Shown here: one piece after another, positions 9,168 to 40,780 of the stretch
Layout: every line of letters begins with the position of its first letter
Position numbering within the stretch: the stretch's first letter is position 1
From: Victivallales bacterium
GTDB lineage: Bacteria > Verrucomicrobiota > Lentisphaeria > Oligosphaerales > Oligosphaeraceae
Assembly: GCA_017535315.1 (NCBI GenBank)
Contig: JAFXUD010000047.1
Span: 1-64,000 of the forward strand
Reading direction: 5' to 3'
DNA length: 64,000 nucleotides
Program-made: the position numbers and the translations under genes
The notes under the pieces: generated by a model
Databases searched by the model: none
What the model saw: only the letters and a program-made list of their open reading frames with translations
Told to the model about the DNA's origin: nothing

Positions 9168-10124
9168 TTAACCGTCATAACGTATGTCGTTCAAGTGTAT
9201 TTTGGGATCTGGCAGCGGCTCTCCAGCCAGCCACCGTACAACCAATGCAGAAGCCTCCTCCAGATCTCCATCCCGTATCCAGTAGATGCGTCGTCCATCC
9301 CGTTCCAATTTGCGAAACCAACCATCCTGCCGCTTGCAAAACTGTCGGATGTGCGCCAGAAGCATATTACGCATCTGTGGAATAGTCAGCTCTCCTGTCA
9401 AGGCCTTTGCGGCAAAGCGATATTCCAGTCCCAACCAATCCATTCGTTCCCAGGACATCCCTTGGTCATGCAGACGTCGCACCTCCTCCAGCATCCCTTG
9501 CGCCAGACGTTCATCCAACCGCTTTTCAATGCGCGCATGAACGACTTTTCTGCTGAAAAAGGGAGCTATGACAAGGCTGTCGTCAATGAGAGGCACGGGT
9601 TTGACGGTCTCTCCAAAACGTGCTAGCTCAATGGAACGGATGACACGGCGCTTCTGCGTCATGTCCGTCCGCCTGAAAAGCGCAGACGAGGCCTCTTTCC
9701 GCAATATCTCTACAAGCACCTCCAACGATTGCTTCTCCAGCTCCGCGCGCAACTCTGCGTTGGGTGCACCGCCATCCTGGTCGTAGCCATCCAGCAACGC
9801 CTTCACATAAAGCACGGAACCGCCAGTAACAACAGGCAGCCTCCCGCGGGCGACAATATCTTGCAACGCTTTTCTAGCCACATCAAGATACCTGAACAGA
9901 TGGAACTCCTCATTCGGCTCCACAATGTCGATGAGATGATAAGGCACGGCATTTGCCCCGCTCCCGTATTCCTCAAGATCCTTGCCAGTCCCGATGTCCA
10001 GCCCACGATAAACCTGGCGCGAATCCGCGCTGACTATCTCGCCGTCAAAGCGACGGGATAACTCTACCGCAAGATGCGTCTTGCCGCTTGCCGTCGGCCC
10101 CGTGACTACCAGACTGCGTATCAC
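9168..10124 (-). CDS. miaA: tRNA dimethylallyltransferase
   Basis: MiaA transfers a dimethylallyl group from DMAPP to N6 of A37 in tRNAs reading UNN codons. The P-loop GPTASGKTHLA is at residues 9-19, followed by DSRQVYRGLDIGTGK (usually GTAK), HLIDIVEPNEEF, VTGGSVLYVKALLDG, and a QKRRVIRSIEL segment in the insertion domain. The C-terminus has GLEYRF and ICKRQ-like FCKRQDGWFR elements. Length 318 is normal. The start is GTG, whose GTGA overlaps the stop of the upstream cdaR-like gene; AGGAGG lies upstream inside that gene, indicating translational coupling. The GTGKDLEEYG loop deviates slightly from the usual GTAKP, a variation also seen in Bacteroidetes-type sequences as far as I recall. Confidence 0.95.
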   Translation of the reverse strand: MIRSLVVTGPTASGKTHLAVELSRRFDGEIVSADSRQVYRGLDIGTGKDLEEYGSGANAVPYHLIDIVEPNEEFHLFRYLDVARKALQDIVARGRLPVVTGGSVLYVKALLDGYDQDGGAPNAELRAELEKQSLEVLVEILRKEASSALFRRTDMTQKRRVIRSIELARFGETVKPVPLIDDSLVIAPFFSRKVVHARIEKRLDERLAQGMLEEVRRLHDQGMSWERMDWLGLEYRFAAKALTGELTIPQMRNMLLAHIRQFCKRQDGWFRKLERDGRRIYWIRDGDLEEASALVVRWLAGEPLPDPKIHLNDIRYDG

Positions 10125-11533
10125 GGTGCCTTTTCCTCCTCTTTGCCAGATGCGGCAGGATTCGAATCGGCGGGCTTCGCTTCTTGTGTCAAAGGCGCGA
10201 AAGGCCTTGCTACATTCTCCGCAGGTTTCGGCTCGGCTGGCTTCAGCTCGGCTGGCTTCGGCTCGGCTGGCTTCGGCTCGGCTGGCTTCGGCTCGGCTGG
10301 CTTCGGCTCGGCTGGCTTCGGCTCGGCTGGCTTCGGCTCGGCTGGCTTCGGCTCGGCTGGCTTCGGCTCGGCTGGCTTCGGCTCGGCTGACTTCTGCTCG
10401 GCTGGCTTCGGCTCGGCTGGCTTCGGCTCGGCTGGCTTCTGCTCGGCTGGCTTCGGCTCGGCTGACTTCGGCTCGGTAGGCCTCGACTTGGCGGTTTTCG
10501 CTGCATCCTCCGCTGTCTGAACGGAGGGAGCCTTATCCAATGGAATCTCCACTAAATTCAGCTCCACAAAAGAGGGTTCCACAGTCATCTCCATCCTGTC
10601 ACGATCTGGCACATTGGCCACACGCACTTGCGCCTGCCATATTCCTGGACCAGGAGCCTCATTCAGGTCAATATAGGCGATTGGAAGCATCACCTTGTGT
10701 TTTTCCCAGATTCTTTTCCGAGCCTTGACACTGACAGTCACAGTTGGCAGCTTCTGGTTTACGACCCTGTATATCTCTTTCTGGGGCTGCAAGAGGTTCA
10801 AAGGCTGCTCCTTGAACCTGCGCGTCTCTGGTACCTCCGAGTTGTTCAGACGTATGCGCACATTCACATACTTCACATTGTCCTTGAAGGTCACATGTGG
10901 CTGATCAGGAAGCACTAGAATCATCGGACGTTCTTCTATATTCTTGTCTAGTTCACTTAGATTCAAGGGGATGGTTTCGACACTTTGGATATTGCGCAAG
11001 GCATCCGACGGTCCCCGCAGGGTTATGTAGTCAAACTCCAATGTTTTCTGAACAAAATACCCCTCTTGCTTGAGAGCCCCTATTTCGGGGACTGTCACTG
11101 GCACTAGCTTGTCTATATAAACATCCAATGGAACGTTTTTTTCGGAAAAAACAACGCTCCCTCCCACTGGCTTCGGGAGGAACCAGCTCTTGTTCACCTT
11201 GTATCTGGCATTCTCCAGACTGTACATGAACTTACGGTTCGGAAGATTGATGTTCGGCAATGTCACAACTATTTCATAATAGGGAGCCATATTACGTAAT
11301 GTTCGAGTGGAATCCAGCTTGAAACTTGCCGTTATCCTCTTCTCCACATCGCCTATTAGACAGACCTTTCCAGGGTTCTCCTCGCGAAAGGTCACCTTCA
11401 CGTTCGTAACATCTTTACTGGCATTCACATTACCATAAATGAAAAATACTGAAAAGGCCGCCACAACCAACGAAAAGAGTTTGCGGAACCAGTCCGTCCA
11501 AAACGTCCTTTTGCGTTTGCCTTCACCACTCAT
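10121..11533 (-). CDS. cdaR: YbbR/CdaR-like protein with long EPKPA repeat tail
   Basis: A membrane-anchored, extracytoplasmic YbbR-domain protein; such proteins (CdaR) interact with and modulate the diadenylate cyclase CdaA. One N-terminal membrane segment (FRKLFSLVVAAFSVFFIYGNV, about 17-37) is followed by beta-rich YbbR-like repeats, for example ITLRGPSDALRNIQSVETIPLNLSELDKNIEE at about 168-200. From about residue 355 a low-complexity tail has about 17 copies of a five-residue EPKPA-like unit (EPKPA, EQKPA, EPKSA, ELKPA). The gene overlaps cdaA by 4 nt (ATGA-type) and miaA by 4 nt, so folP-cdaA-cdaR-miaA is a tightly coupled unit. The repeat tail could span the cell wall or vary in length by slippage. 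CdaR function is inferred from context. Confidence 0.85.
   Translation of the reverse strand: MSGEGKRKRTFWTDWFRKLFSLVVAAFSVFFIYGNVNASKDVTNVKVTFREENPGKVCLIGDVEKRITASFKLDSTRTLRNMAPYYEIVVTLPNINLPNRKFMYSLENARYKVNKSWFLPKPVGGSVVFSEKNVPLDVYIDKLVPVTVPEIGALKQEGYFVQKTLEFDYITLRGPSDALRNIQSVETIPLNLSELDKNIEERPMILVLPDQPHVTFKDNVKYVNVRIRLNNSEVPETRRFKEQPLNLLQPQKEIYRVVNQKLPTVTVSVKARKRIWEKHKVMLPIAYIDLNEAPGPGIWQAQVRVANVPDRDRMEMTVEPSFVELNLVEIPLDKAPSVQTAEDAAKTAKSRPTEPKSAEPKPAEQKPAEPKPAEPKPAEQKSAEPKPAEPKPAEPKPAEPKPAEPKPAEPKPAEPKPAEPKPAEPKPAELKPAEPKPAENVARPFAPLTQEAKPADSNPAASGKEEEKAP
10228..10480. repeat. 15-bp coding minisatellite in the cdaR-like gene
   Basis: About 17 head-to-tail copies of a 15-bp unit (plus strand GGCTTCGGCTCGGCT) encode the EPKPA repeat on the minus strand. 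Copies in the centre are identical at the DNA level; divergent units (Gln, Ser, Leu variants) lie towards the ends, as expected for recent expansion. Because the unit is a multiple of three, changes in copy number keep the frame. Confidence 0.95.
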
Positions 11534-16334: not shown

Positions 16335-17108
16335 TTACTGTCCGCTGTTCAGTCTTGATGCCAGCACGGGTGGCAGACCGTTGTCCAGGATGCGCCTTTG
16401 TGCAGCTGCAATATCATATTTCACACGCAGCATCGTCACATCATCCGTCTCATCGTTGTAAAGGATAGAACATGCCCGAGGATCTTCATCACGGGGCTGA
16501 CCGACGGCGCCCACGCCAATCATGGTACGCCCTTGTTTCGGGATACGTGTGTTGTAGAAGAACTCAACCTTGACCTTATGCCCAGGACGGTGCGTCGCAA
16601 TAAGCGGGATATGGCAGTGCCCATTGAAACACAGGCGTTGCTGCTGGAAAAGCAGATGCATCATGGCGGATTTGTTCCCTGTGACATATATCCAGGGTGG
16701 AAATGGCTGGCAGGAGGCATGGATGACCAGAAAGTTCTTCGTCTCCACATACATCGGCAACGCGGCAAGCCAATCGAATTGCTCGCGTGTCAGAACGGTC
16801 CGCGTCCAAGCAATCACCTTATTGGCCTCGGCACGCACATACTTGGGATTATACTGATTTGGGAACGCAACGTAGGAATCATGGTTTCCGCAGGCACATG
16901 GGATGTTTCGTTCACGCAGGGCATCAATGCACGCGCCAGGCGCACCGCCATAGCCGACCACATCGCCGCAGCAATAGACACGCTCCACAGAAAGCCTGTC
17001 GAAATAATCGAATGTGGCATTCAGTGCGTCTATATTGCCATGTATGTCGCCGATGACGCCAATCAACATAACTCCAACTCGCCTTTTCGAGGTAAAATCA
17101 TTTGCCAT
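16335..17108 (-). CDS. Metallophosphoesterase (YfcE/ApaH-like fold)
   Basis: A calcineurin-like phosphoesterase with the full two-metal motif set: GDIHGN (about 20-25), GDVVGYG, GNHD, a His in VIHASC and GHCHIP near residue 170. Closest in layout to small diadenosine-polyphosphatase or YfcE-type proteins; 257 residues. A shorter start at 17069 (MLIGVIGDIHGN) is possible, but AAGGAAA precedes the longer one. It is divergently oriented from nadD, sharing the 116-bp gap at 17109-17224, and is the first gene of the GT2/DUF2304/radical SAM run. Substrate unknown. Confidence 0.88.
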   Translation of the reverse strand: MANDFTSKRRVGVMLIGVIGDIHGNIDALNATFDYFDRLSVERVYCCGDVVGYGGAPGACIDALRERNIPCACGNHDSYVAFPNQYNPKYVRAEANKVIAWTRTVLTREQFDWLAALPMYVETKNFLVIHASCQPFPPWIYVTGNKSAMMHLLFQQQRLCFNGHCHIPLIATHRPGHKVKVEFFYNTRIPKQGRTMIGVGAVGQPRDEDPRACSILYNDETDDVTMLRVKYDIAAAQRRILDNGLPPVLASRLNSGQ

Positions 17109-17224
17109 TTTCCTTTTTAAAACTATATTATATCATGGATATTCGCAATGCGCAAACGCATATTCGCGTTTTCCAGCGATTCAACACGGTTTTTTAGTCA
17201 TTTTCAACGTTTCTCACCCTCACC

Positions 17225-19021
17225 ATGGATAACGAAGAGCATAATTCAACTGACGGTAAGCCATATAGCGACAAAAGGCGCAACTCCTATGGCAGGCCAG
17301 GCAAAGACGGCAACCAACCACCCCGCTTTGACCGTACAGATTCATCTAGGCGCTTCGGTCACGGCGAGGGAAAAGATAATTATAAACCACGCCGCCGAAA
17401 TGAAGGCTATTCCTCTGATGCCCACTACCGCCATCATGACGATAGCGACTCATCTGGAGAGTTCAAGCTACGAGGCTTTGACCGCTCAACTGAACGCAGG
17501 AGCTTCAGGCGCGATGACGGCAATGGCGATGACTTCAAGCCACGCCGTTTCGAACATTCCGCCGAACGCAGGAGCTTCAGGCGCGATGACGGCAAAAGCG
17601 ATGACTTCAAGCCACGCCGTTTCGAACATTCTGCCGAACGCAAGAGCTTCAGGCCGAATGACGGCAATGGCGATGATTTCAAGCCACGCCGTTTCGAGCG
17701 TTCCGCAGAACGCAGGAGCTTCAGGCGCGATGACGACAATGGCGATGACTTCAAGCCACGCCGTTTCGAGCGTTCCGCAGAACGCAGGAGCTTCAGGCGC
17801 GATGACGACAATGGCGATGACTTCAAGCCACGCCGTTTCGAACGTTCCGCCGAACGCAGGAGCTTCAGGCGCGATGACGGCAATGGCGATGACTTCAAGC
17901 CACGCCGTTTCGAACATTCCGCCGAACGCAGGAGCTTCAGGCGCGACGGCGATGGGTATAGCCGTCAGAACGACACTCGTTTTGGCGAACACAAACGCTT
18001 CGAAGGGAAAAAGGATTTCAGGCACGATTCGAAACCCAATTTTACCGATGAAGATCCTTCTTTGGAGCTGGAAAACGGGGAACAACGGTCCTCCTCATAT
18101 CCAGAGCTTCCCAGGCGTTCAGACCGAAGCGGTTATCGAAAACCACTTGATTCATGGAGAAAAGACTACCGTCCCAATGAAAGAAACAGCACATATGATA
18201 CCCCCCTACCCAAAGACAATGAGGCTATCAACGATGTCGCTGAATCCTTCTCATCGCAGACCGATGGCAAACTCATAGAGAAACCTATTGAGGAACGCCC
18301 TGCGCCAAAGCCCCTTCCATTGCCACAAAACAAGAAGATTGCCTTGTTTGGCGGCTCCTTCGACCCGATTCACAACGGCCATTTGATGATTGCGGAATAC
18401 ATTATCGAACGTGGTCTGGCAGATGAAATACTCTTCATCCCCTCCGCCATCCCACCCCACAAGGAAGGAATGACCGTCGCCACTCCAGAACAACGACTTG
18501 AAATGGTCCGTCTGGCACTGGCAGACAATGAGCATTTCAGCTACTCCGACATGGAATTGCTTAGAGAAGGCAAATCCTATTCCTTCGACACAGTCTCCAT
18601 GCTCCAGAAAATCTATCCAGACTGCCTGCTTTACTTCATCATTGGCATGGACAGCCTGAACCAGCTCCACACCTGGTACCGCGCCACAGAGCTAGTGCAG
18701 CGTGTGAACTTCATTGTTTATCCTCGTCCCGATGTCACCCCGCCTGCATACATCGACCTTTGCGCATCTTTTGGAAATCGCAATGCGCTGCGCCTCTTGC
18801 AGTCCGTTCTTCCCGAACATGAAAAGATTGTGACTAGGCAGCCATCGGAAGTCGCAGGAGAACCCGATACGCAGATTGTCAAGGAGTACAACCTGCCCAG
18901 CAGCAGTCTCTCTTCGACGGAGATTCGAAAGGCCATCAGTCAAGGGCTGGATGTCAAGGAATACCTCCCTGAACTAGTCCTGAATTACATCATCGAAAAC
19001 CATCTTTATCAACAAAACTAA
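17225..19021 (+). CDS. nadD: NadD nicotinate-mononucleotide adenylyltransferase with 368-residue repetitive N-terminal extension
   Basis: The C-terminal 230 residues are a complete NadD, which makes deamido-NAD from NaMN and ATP: KKIALFGGSFDPIHNGHLMIAE (about 369-390), IPPHKEG, DMELLREGKSYSFDT, FIIGMDSLNQLHTW and the C-terminal SSTEIRKAI. The preceding 368 residues are a low-complexity polyampholyte rich in Arg, Asp, Ser and Phe, with seven 24-residue repeats (core SFRRDDGNGDDFKPRRFE). The first ATG has no Shine-Dalgarno sequence, but the frame is open from 17225 into the enzyme and the repeats keep the frame. A separate internal start for NadD is possible but no good one is evident. It is followed by rsfS at the classic spacing. 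The extension looks intrinsically disordered; its function is unknown. Confidence 0.93.
   Translation: MDNEEHNSTDGKPYSDKRRNSYGRPGKDGNQPPRFDRTDSSRRFGHGEGKDNYKPRRRNEGYSSDAHYRHHDDSDSSGEFKLRGFDRSTERRSFRRDDGNGDDFKPRRFEHSAERRSFRRDDGKSDDFKPRRFEHSAERKSFRPNDGNGDDFKPRRFERSAERRSFRRDDDNGDDFKPRRFERSAERRSFRRDDDNGDDFKPRRFERSAERRSFRRDDGNGDDFKPRRFEHSAERRSFRRDGDGYSRQNDTRFGEHKRFEGKKDFRHDSKPNFTDEDPSLELENGEQRSSSYPELPRRSDRSGYRKPLDSWRKDYRPNERNSTYDTPLPKDNEAINDVAESFSSQTDGKLIEKPIEERPAPKPLPLPQNKKIALFGGSFDPIHNGHLMIAEYIIERGLADEILFIPSAIPPHKEGMTVATPEQRLEMVRLALADNEHFSYSDMELLREGKSYSFDTVSMLQKIYPDCLLYFIIGMDSLNQLHTWYRATELVQRVNFIVYPRPDVTPPAYIDLCASFGNRNALRLLQSVLPEHEKIVTRQPSEVAGEPDTQIVKEYNLPSSSLSSTEIRKAISQGLDVKEYLPELVLNYIIENHLYQQN
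17499..17957. repeat. 72-bp tandem coding repeat in nadD
   Basis: Units start at 17499, 17571, 17643, 17715, 17787, 17859 and (partial) 17931, a strict 72-bp period. Each encodes a 24-residue unit with core RRSFRRDDGNGDDFKPRRFE. Several copies are nearly identical at the DNA level, including synonymous sites, suggesting recent amplification or gene conversion. The period keeps long spurious frames open on both strands. Confidence 0.97.
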
Positions 19022-19059
19022 TTAAAGAGGTAATTTCTTAAAAGAAAGGAGAACATACA

Positions 19060-19824
19060 ATGGAAGGACAAAACGATATAGACAACGAAAACACCGCTAT
19101 CGTCGATGAAATCGCCCGTCGATGCGTAAGCATCTGCGAGGAAAAGAAAGCCTCCAATATCTTGCTTTTCGATGTCCGTGAGAACAGTATCCTTGCGGAC
19201 TACTTTCTGGTCTGCTGCGGAAACTCCATGGCGCATGTCCGTGCCCTATCCGAAAACCTCCGCAGAACCCTTATCAATGAAGGGTTCAAACCGAGGGGAC
19301 GCGAGGGAACCCCCGCTAGCCAGTGGATTGTCCTTGACTTCGGCATCATCCTCATCCATATCATGACCCCTGAAATGAGACGCCACTACTGCCTTGAAGA
19401 CCTGTGGGACAAAAGGCTTGTCGTCTATCAGGGAGGCGAGGAAATGCCAGCCACCTCTATCCCCGCCGATGATGACGAGGATTCCACTTATCAGGGACAA
19501 TGGGATGACGACTTCGACGAGGAGGACGAGGAGGATGAGGAGGATGAATGGGATGACGAGGATATTGATGACGAGGAGGACGAAGAGGATTGGGACGAAA
19601 ACGAGGAAGAAAACGAAGACGAGGAAGATGATTGGGACGACGAGGATGACGAGAACAATGACGACGAGGAGGACGATTGGGACGACGATTGGGACGAAGA
19701 CGATGATGATGAAGAAAATCCAAAGCCCAAAAAAGACGGCGGCATAACTCCGAAAGACATCTTCGGCGATGATGATGACGATGACAAGGACGACACCATC
19801 AAAATTCCAGTCAATAAAAAATGA
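19060..19824 (+). CDS. rsfS: Ribosomal silencing factor RsfS with long acidic tail
   Basis: Residues about 12-128 form a RsfS/Iojap domain, which binds ribosomal protein L14 (uL14) and blocks subunit joining under starvation: ASNILLFDVRENSILADYFLVCCGNS, HVRALSENL, then REGTPASQWIVLDFGIILIHIMTPEMRRHYCLEDLW. The C-terminal 115 residues are almost entirely Asp/Glu (with regularly placed Trp in DDW-type units), then a short Lys-rich end. Typical RsfS is about 110-130 residues. AAGGAG lies 8 nt before the ATG; the gene is 38 nt after nadD, the usual nadD-rsfS pair. The acidic tail may mimic nucleic acid or bind basic ribosomal proteins; this is inference. Confidence 0.94.
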   Translation: MEGQNDIDNENTAIVDEIARRCVSICEEKKASNILLFDVRENSILADYFLVCCGNSMAHVRALSENLRRTLINEGFKPRGREGTPASQWIVLDFGIILIHIMTPEMRRHYCLEDLWDKRLVVYQGGEEMPATSIPADDDEDSTYQGQWDDDFDEEDEEDEEDEWDDEDIDDEEDEEDWDENEEENEDEEDDWDDEDDENNDDEEDDWDDDWDEDDDDEENPKPKKDGGITPKDIFGDDDDDDKDDTIKIPVNKK

Positions 19825-20475
19825 ACGCTATGTCCCCCAAGGTTAGTTTGCTGAAGTCGCGAAGCGGCAACGCACGAAGTGCTCGACTATGCGTAACCAT
19901 TGGCAAGCACCCGTAAGGGCGCACAGCCTGCAGAAGTCATGTCCCACAAGATCCTGCGCCCGCAAGGGCGCAACAAAAAACATTGCAGTTAACTACCTTC
20001 TTGGGAAACAGAGCAAAAAAGAAGGGAATTATGTACTTTAGTTGCCGATTAGACTTCACCCACAAAGAAGAGCCGCGACAGCGGCGGTAAGAGCATAGCC
20101 GTGGGTGAAGCGAAGCCGCGACAGCGGCGGTAAGAGCATAGCCGTGGGTGAAGCGAAGCCGCGACAGCGGCGGTAAGAGCATAGCCGTGGGTGAAGCGAA
20201 GCCGCGTCAGCGGCGAAGCGAAACCCACGGTCAGATAACCACCCCGATCCCTGTGCGCCGTACCGCGTAGCGCAGCGAAGCGGCACGGCGCATCTTGACC
20301 ATCGACCAGTGAGGGATAATGACATCAGGAAACTCAAGCTTATAATTCCCAAAAGAAACTGTTTTTCTAGATTCATCTCTGCTATTTTCCCCATATTGAG
20401 TTGAAAACAACAGATTATATGTTATATTGATAGAGAAATAATAATTCACAATTGTTGTTCAATGGAGATAACACT
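19825..20475. repeat. Intergenic structured repeat region with 43-bp tandem array
   Basis: This 650-bp gap holds no credible gene. At 20071, 20114, 20157 and 20200 a 43-bp unit repeats (AGCCGCGACAGCGGCGGTAA, then GAGCATAGCCGTGGGTGAAGCG). Each has a hairpin GCCGC-GACA-GCGGC; the fourth copy has GTCA in the loop. CCGTGGGT in the units can pair with ACCCACGG at 20222-20229. A further hairpin, GCGCCGT...ACGGCGC, lies at about 20255-20291. The same family, with the same hairpin order, is arrayed at 40222-40699. Upstream, 19860-19975 has further inverted GC-rich words (CGAAGCGGCAACG, CCGTAAGGGCG, CGCAAGGGCG). The rpmA promoter presumably lies in the AT-rich part after 20330. Confidence 0.85.
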
Positions 20476-40221: not shown

Positions 40222-40699
40222 TACCCGCGTTAGCGGCGACAAGAACATAGCCGTGGGTGGAGCGAAGCCGCAAGGCGCAAAAAGAGCCGCGTCAGCGGCG
40301 ACAAGAACATAGCCGTGGGTGAAGCGAAGCCGCGTAAGCGGCGAGCGCAACCCACGGACACATCAGGCCCCTGTTCCTTTGCGCCGTGCCACGTAGCGAA
40401 GCGGAGCGGCACGGCGCAGAAAGAGCCGCGTTAGCGGCGACAAGAACATAGCCGTGGGTGGAGCGAAGCCGCGTAAGCGGCGAGCGCAACCCACGGACAC
40501 ATCAGGCCCCAGTTCCTTGGCGCCGTGCCACGTAGCGAAGCGGAGCGGCACGGCGCAGAAAGAGCCGCGTTAGCGGCGACAAGAACATAGCCGTGGGTGG
40601 AGCGAAGCCGCGTAAGCGGCGAGCGCAACCCACGGACACATGAGGCCCCTGTTCCTTTGCGCCGTGCCACGTAGCGAAGCGGAGCGGCACGGCGCAGAA
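40222..40699. repeat. 139-bp structured repeat array
   Basis: Three units with a 139-bp period (starting 40284, 40423, 40562) and a leading partial unit at 40222. Each unit holds: hairpin 1 GCCGC-GTTA-GCGGC (or GTCA); hairpin 2, CCGTGGGT pairing with ACCCACGG around an inner GCCGC-GTAA-GCGGC; hairpin 3, GCGCCGTGCC pairing with GGCACGGCGC. Copies are almost identical. The same elements in the same order are at 20071-20295. The array fills most of the gap between DUF4838 and ceramidase-like genes; the AT-rich 40700-40780 stretch likely carries the next promoter. Confidence 0.93.
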
Positions 40700-40780
40700 A
40701 ATAGTCAATACGCCCTCAGCTGAATAGTTAGTAGCTAAAAAGGTTATCAACACCTTAAAATAACATAGGATTAACTCATC

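Follow-up and report, generated by a model that had tools for sequence, protein, structure and literature searches.

What does a long, repetitive extension do in front of the NAD-synthesis enzyme NadD, and does it belong with the acidic tail of the RsfS encoded next to it? The window analysed here is a 64,000-nucleotide stretch of a Victivallales contig, in which nadD (17225-19021, + strand) is an open reading frame of 598 aa. Its catalytic core (residues 368-598; 18326-19021, +) is conventional: residues ~368-597 match TIGR00482 and NF000840, both above their cut-offs (164.9 bits against 112.45 for TIGR00482), AlphaFold pLDDT is mostly 72-97, and the nucleotide-binding motif GG[ST]FDPxHxGH is intact as GGSFDPIHNGH from residue 376, at columns that are invariant in the alignment of relatives. 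An insert of ~23 aa (IVTRQPSEVAGEPDTQIVKEYN) within the core is missing from most relatives. Canonical bacterial NadD, as represented by TIGR00482, has the same core but starts at the motif, whereas 367 residues precede it here.

The extension (residues 1-367; 17225-18325, +) is built around seven units of 72 bp, or 24 aa, at 17477-17980 (+), with the consensus F(E/D)(R/H)SAERRSFRRDDGNGDDFKPRR (Tandem Repeats Finder score 796, 6.3 copies, 94% matches). Units start at residues 85, 109, 133, 157, 181, 205, and 229, the seventh being degenerate beyond ~15 residues, and together they form a block at residues 85-252 whose 168 aa include 44 R, 29 D, and 20 F, with a net charge of +10 and a charged fraction of 0.56. 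Arginine accounts for 26% of the block (44/168) and for 18% of the whole extension, which carries +9 or +10 over 367-370 aa. The extension is predicted to be intrinsically disordered, being positive in the charge-hydropathy test and having a pLDDT mostly below 50 over residues 1-350. Upstream, a consensus search gives a single promoter-like site on the + strand ahead of the long start, a sigma-70-like match (TTGCCA / TATATT or TATTAT; 17102-17131) ~95 nt before 17225; a metallophosphoesterase gene diverges from nadD on the - strand, starting at 17108.

The adjoining rsfS (19060-19824, +; 254 aa) encodes a folded domain (residues 1-126; 19060-19437, +) with pLDDT above 90 over most of its length, of which residues ~19-116 match PF02410 and TIGR00090 (99.8 bits for the latter, against a cut-off of 56.9). 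The remainder, residues 127-254 plus the stop codon (19438-19824, +), is a tail of ~126 residues with 75 D/E and a net charge of -67, likewise predicted to be disordered (pLDDT about 47-61). Near its end lies a short motif, GGITPKDIFGDDD (19738-19776, +), modeled by AlphaFold as a one-turn helix and with a counterpart, GGYTLKDLFGNDD, in a species of the same genus (G002), the common form being GGxTxKDxFGxDD. No relatives of RsfS were found in viral contigs. A preliminary description of this locus had reported seven 24-aa Arg/Asp/Phe repeats ahead of a motif at residue 376, a mostly acidic C-terminus on RsfS, and disorder in both; the repeats and the acidic C-terminus are borne out, and the disorder agrees with the AlphaFold and charge-hydropathy predictions. 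Its remark that the repeats are near neutral, making simple opposite-charge binding not obvious, also stands, the repeats being only slightly positive.

Both segments are extreme for their genome. A sample of 1.69 Mb (34%) with 1,350 ORFs has no Arg-containing mixed-charge segment denser than the NadD block, and no 60-residue window more acidic than the RsfS tail; if positions were random the two would adjoin with a chance of about 0.0015, a post hoc figure. The sample contains no other comparable R/D/F array, ruling out, within that 34%, a genome-wide fashion for them. Other strongly acidic tails occur on a zinc-ribbon-like protein (L215) and one further protein (L234), and the Rho of this genome (L227:7896-9998, +) has a probably disordered N-terminal stretch rich in R/Q/N/Y. 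The window holds further arrays of other kinds. A 15-bp unit (TTCGGCTCGGCTGGC) repeated 16.7 times at 10227-10476 gives RAEAS repeats in frame upstream of miaA (- strand), but no in-frame ATG, GTG, or TTG precedes them (the first is a GTG at 10124), so they are probably untranslated with MiaA. Arrays at 20071-20215 and 40225-40700, one of them between rsfS and rpmA, have in common a unit around AACATAGCCGTGGGTGAAGCGA, whose core occurs seven times in the window against none expected.

We surveyed 29 genomes of the Oligosphaeraceae-type family (Lentisphaeria). NadD extensions of 99-625 aa are present in G000, G003, G011 (117 aa), G012, G024 (615 aa), G026 (625 aa), and G027 (256 aa). The other genomes with a complete N-terminus have about 8-46 aa; G004 is counted with these, since an upstream ATG would give it 117 aa yet its sister G014 has 46, and G020 is undecidable from its sequence. 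In the sister species of the window genome (G001), a homologous extension lies at the same site beside the same divergent phosphoesterase; its ORF starts with MDN (conserved ATGGATAAC) and has the FKPRRF repeat core in common, and the contig ends inside the array. The NadD of G002 has only 24 N-terminal residues and no long extension. Units differ between genera (GDRPFRRRDD in G003, GDRPYRPYKRFNRDENGGEG in G024 and G026, REPRRFHRDEDDYRGREEG in G012, GEWSDRPPRRRE in G027), and the make-up of the extensions is alike, with 15-28% R, 16-35% D+E, and 7-11% aromatic residues; those of G003, G024, and G026 are slightly net negative. As far as sequence can tell, at least five genera of the family contain a NadD with a long extension, the units differing and the R/D/E/F/Y make-up being common to them. 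Parsimony on the NadD+RsfS family tree gives five changes of extension state, which we read as repeated gain or expansion of the extension on NadD within this one Lentisphaeria family.

No further extensions of this kind were seen among the matches listed for the class and phylum samples. Eight long NadD frames from elsewhere in the phylum were read and rejected as disordered extensions, six being GC-rich shadow frames and two TilS-like::NadD fusions. Single ORFs from a different family of the phylum (L306:1060-2754, -, and L307:1079-2737, -; G287 and G327) combine NadD with a TilS-like PP-loop ATPase domain (PF01171). Searching the relatives with the G003 and G026 units returned NadD again and one flavoprotein only. 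An HI0933-like flavoprotein of G012 (L057:14-1858, -) carries a C-terminal GDRPFRKD tandem array resembling those of NadD, indicating that the property is not specific to NadD. Two NadD cores have internal insertions of their own: in G002 (L054:884-1780, +) a charged stretch of about 60-70 aa follows the first helix, and G003 (L037) has an acidic/proline-rich one.

The distribution is associated with habitat, which we took from record titles, with digester and landfill labels coming partly from isolate names. Six of the seven named ruminant-gut genomes have the long extension (G002 is the exception), as do none of the 12 named genomes from digesters, sludge, landfill-type samples, or horse faeces (ruminant gut versus others, Fisher p = 2.6e-4, a value that ignores phylogeny and covers about four lineages). 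The extension is found mainly in ruminant-gut species, an association that rests on few lineages.

Selection could be measured between G024 and G026, which are separate species in a genus other than that of the window. Their NadD extension gives a dN/dS of 0.163 over 574 aligned codons at a dS of ~0.9, with 0.239 in its less repetitive half, compared with 0.09 in the catalytic core; these values show purifying selection on the extension as read in the frame of NadD. The unit-to-unit differences of the window array discriminate poorly between frames, and their variation alone does not show selection among the units.

The explanation that we consider best, with a probability of roughly 0.45, is that the NadD extension is a translated, disordered, Arg-enriched mixed-charge repeat domain, gained or expanded several times, which clusters or localizes NadD through multivalent contacts with itself or with RNA. 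These contacts are the part that we infer. Arg and Phe (or Tyr) stickers, together with alternating charge, would make weak multivalent contacts with the extension itself, RNA, or other polyanions; NadD could then be clustered, localized, or kept in store within nucleoprotein condensates, perhaps on growth arrest, and the fused catalytic core would meanwhile go on making deamido-NAD. Unit sequence would drift and copies would expand by slippage, both being tolerated, we propose, because composition and not exact sequence carries the function. Because the extension is near neutral, and slightly negative in G003, G024, and G026, RNA binding is not assured; its absence from G002 and the digester relatives indicates that NadD can function without it.

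The main rival supposes that a solubility tail grew almost neutrally, a reading that we regard as unlikely but well worth weighing. Here, a 72-bp unit keeps the frame, slippage lengthens the array, and selection does no more than purge stop codons and residues that are sticky or hydrophobic, leaving a solubility or spacer tail at most. Units that are near-identical within the window array and different between genera fit such a history, as do N-terminal lengths from about 8 to 625 aa in one family and a same-genus species without the extension. It accounts less well for the purifying selection that G024 and G026 show across about 574 codons, the less repetitive half included, for an R/D/E/aromatic make-up reached repeatedly on the same gene when the array is the sole one of its kind in 1,350 ORFs of its own genome, and for the habitat association. 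Purifying selection and repeated gain argue against pure neutrality, though not against a modest spacer role.

The preliminary description had suggested that the NadD extension and the RsfS tail co-occur and share a role, which would mean that they bind each other, or a common RNA or ribosome partner, and so tether NAD synthesis to ribosome silencing. The adjacency of the two genes speaks for this idea, as does the fact that the genome sample reaches its highest density of R-containing mixed charge in one and its highest acidity in the other, but co-occurrence proves inconsistent: G002 has an acidic RsfS tail of 112 residues without the NadD extension, and G027 and G011 have the extension with RsfS tails of 5-7 residues that lack any acidic residue. 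Genus g4 has a mildly acidic RsfS end and its nadD on another contig. A phylogenetic pair test is uninformative, the RsfS tail being usually the same within pairs and significance out of reach, and the near neutrality of the NadD repeats also weighs against binding. A related family of the same class (f14) provides a physical link of another sort. In seven of its genomes NadD and RsfS form one ORF with no stop between them; Pfam domains confirm three of these fusions (L046:2493-3746, L047:3265-4392, and L048:3000-4043, all +; G051, G056, and G059), and the other four (G195, G191, G177, and G168) are read from the open frame. In most other members of that family nadD and rsfS are neighbours, often sharing a frame interrupted by one stop. 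The fusions join the two neighbours, yet both the repeat extension and the acidic tail are absent from them. The shared role of the two tails therefore finds no support, whereas a link between the enzyme and the ribosome factor gains some indirectly; tethering through the tails is weakened, possible but not favoured, and we consider it doubtful. The RsfS tail would better be described as a separate, genus-specific elaboration that could enter the same assembly as the NadD extension. A wider scenario, in which NadD of ruminant-gut Lentisphaeria was repeatedly recruited to RNA-containing condensates by convergent R-rich mixed-charge repeats, and in the genus of the window RsfS joins them through its acidic tail and so links the supply of NAD to translational dormancy, is more speculative still.

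Least probable, and hardly credible to us, is that the long frame is unused and NadD begins at an internal TTG near residue 366, the upstream repeats being untranslated or read in another frame: NadD elsewhere begins at the nucleotide-binding motif, no Shine-Dalgarno sequence is visible before the ATG at 17225, and the repeat region is open in further frames too, but that ATG is the only one in frame before the core, the in-frame TTGs at 18062 and 18320 also lack a visible Shine-Dalgarno sequence, a promoter-like site lies upstream of 17225, the long-start sequence ATGGATAAC is conserved in G001, and the extension is under in-frame purifying selection in G024 and G026. The extension is, on this sequence evidence, very probably translated. 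Absence from close relatives had been named beforehand as a sign of an assembly artefact; although G002, of the same genus, does lack the extension, the G001 homologue at the same position rules an artefact out. The idea that the array came from a phage or a mobile element was also discarded, with no match in phage or plasmid records, PDB chains, or Pfam.

If the preferred reading of a condensate-forming or localizing domain is correct, its repeated appearance on one metabolic enzyme, chiefly among gut lineages, would offer a natural experiment on the evolution of such regions, and would also bear on whether uncultured gut bacteria organize their metabolic enzymes in space. Why nadD and rsfS are neighbours, an old question, becomes directly testable with the NadD::RsfS fusions. 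We found no report in the open-access literature of a NadD with a disordered condensate-forming region; Rho and other bacterial RNA-handling proteins are already known to have such regions. In composition, the closest likeness is to the R-MCDs of eukaryotes, defined by at least 20% Arg, a net positive charge, and more than 40% charged residues, which promote localization to nuclear speckles (PMC12629991). With 26% R, a net charge of +10, and 56% charged residues, the NadD repeat block falls within this definition, and it resembles R-MCDs in low complexity and predicted disorder as well (PMC12629991). R-MCDs belong to eukaryotic nuclear proteins, whereas NadD is a bacterial metabolic enzyme with R/D/F repeats. 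Rho offers a bacterial comparison. In Bacteroides thetaiotaomicron, it condenses with RNA through its disordered region under starvation, aiding gut fitness (PMC13269538), and the corresponding regions in other gut bacteria contain independently arisen YQSRGD or RNYQD tandem repeats (PMC10284900). Rho is an RNA helicase with an internal insertion, in contrast to an NAD-synthesis enzyme with an N-terminal extension, and RNA- and ppGpp-dependent condensation has been demonstrated for Rho only (PMC13269538). Common to gut-bacterial Rho and NadD is a conserved essential protein bearing a lineage-specific disordered region of variable length and make-up, sometimes with short tandem repeats of independent origin (PMC10284900).
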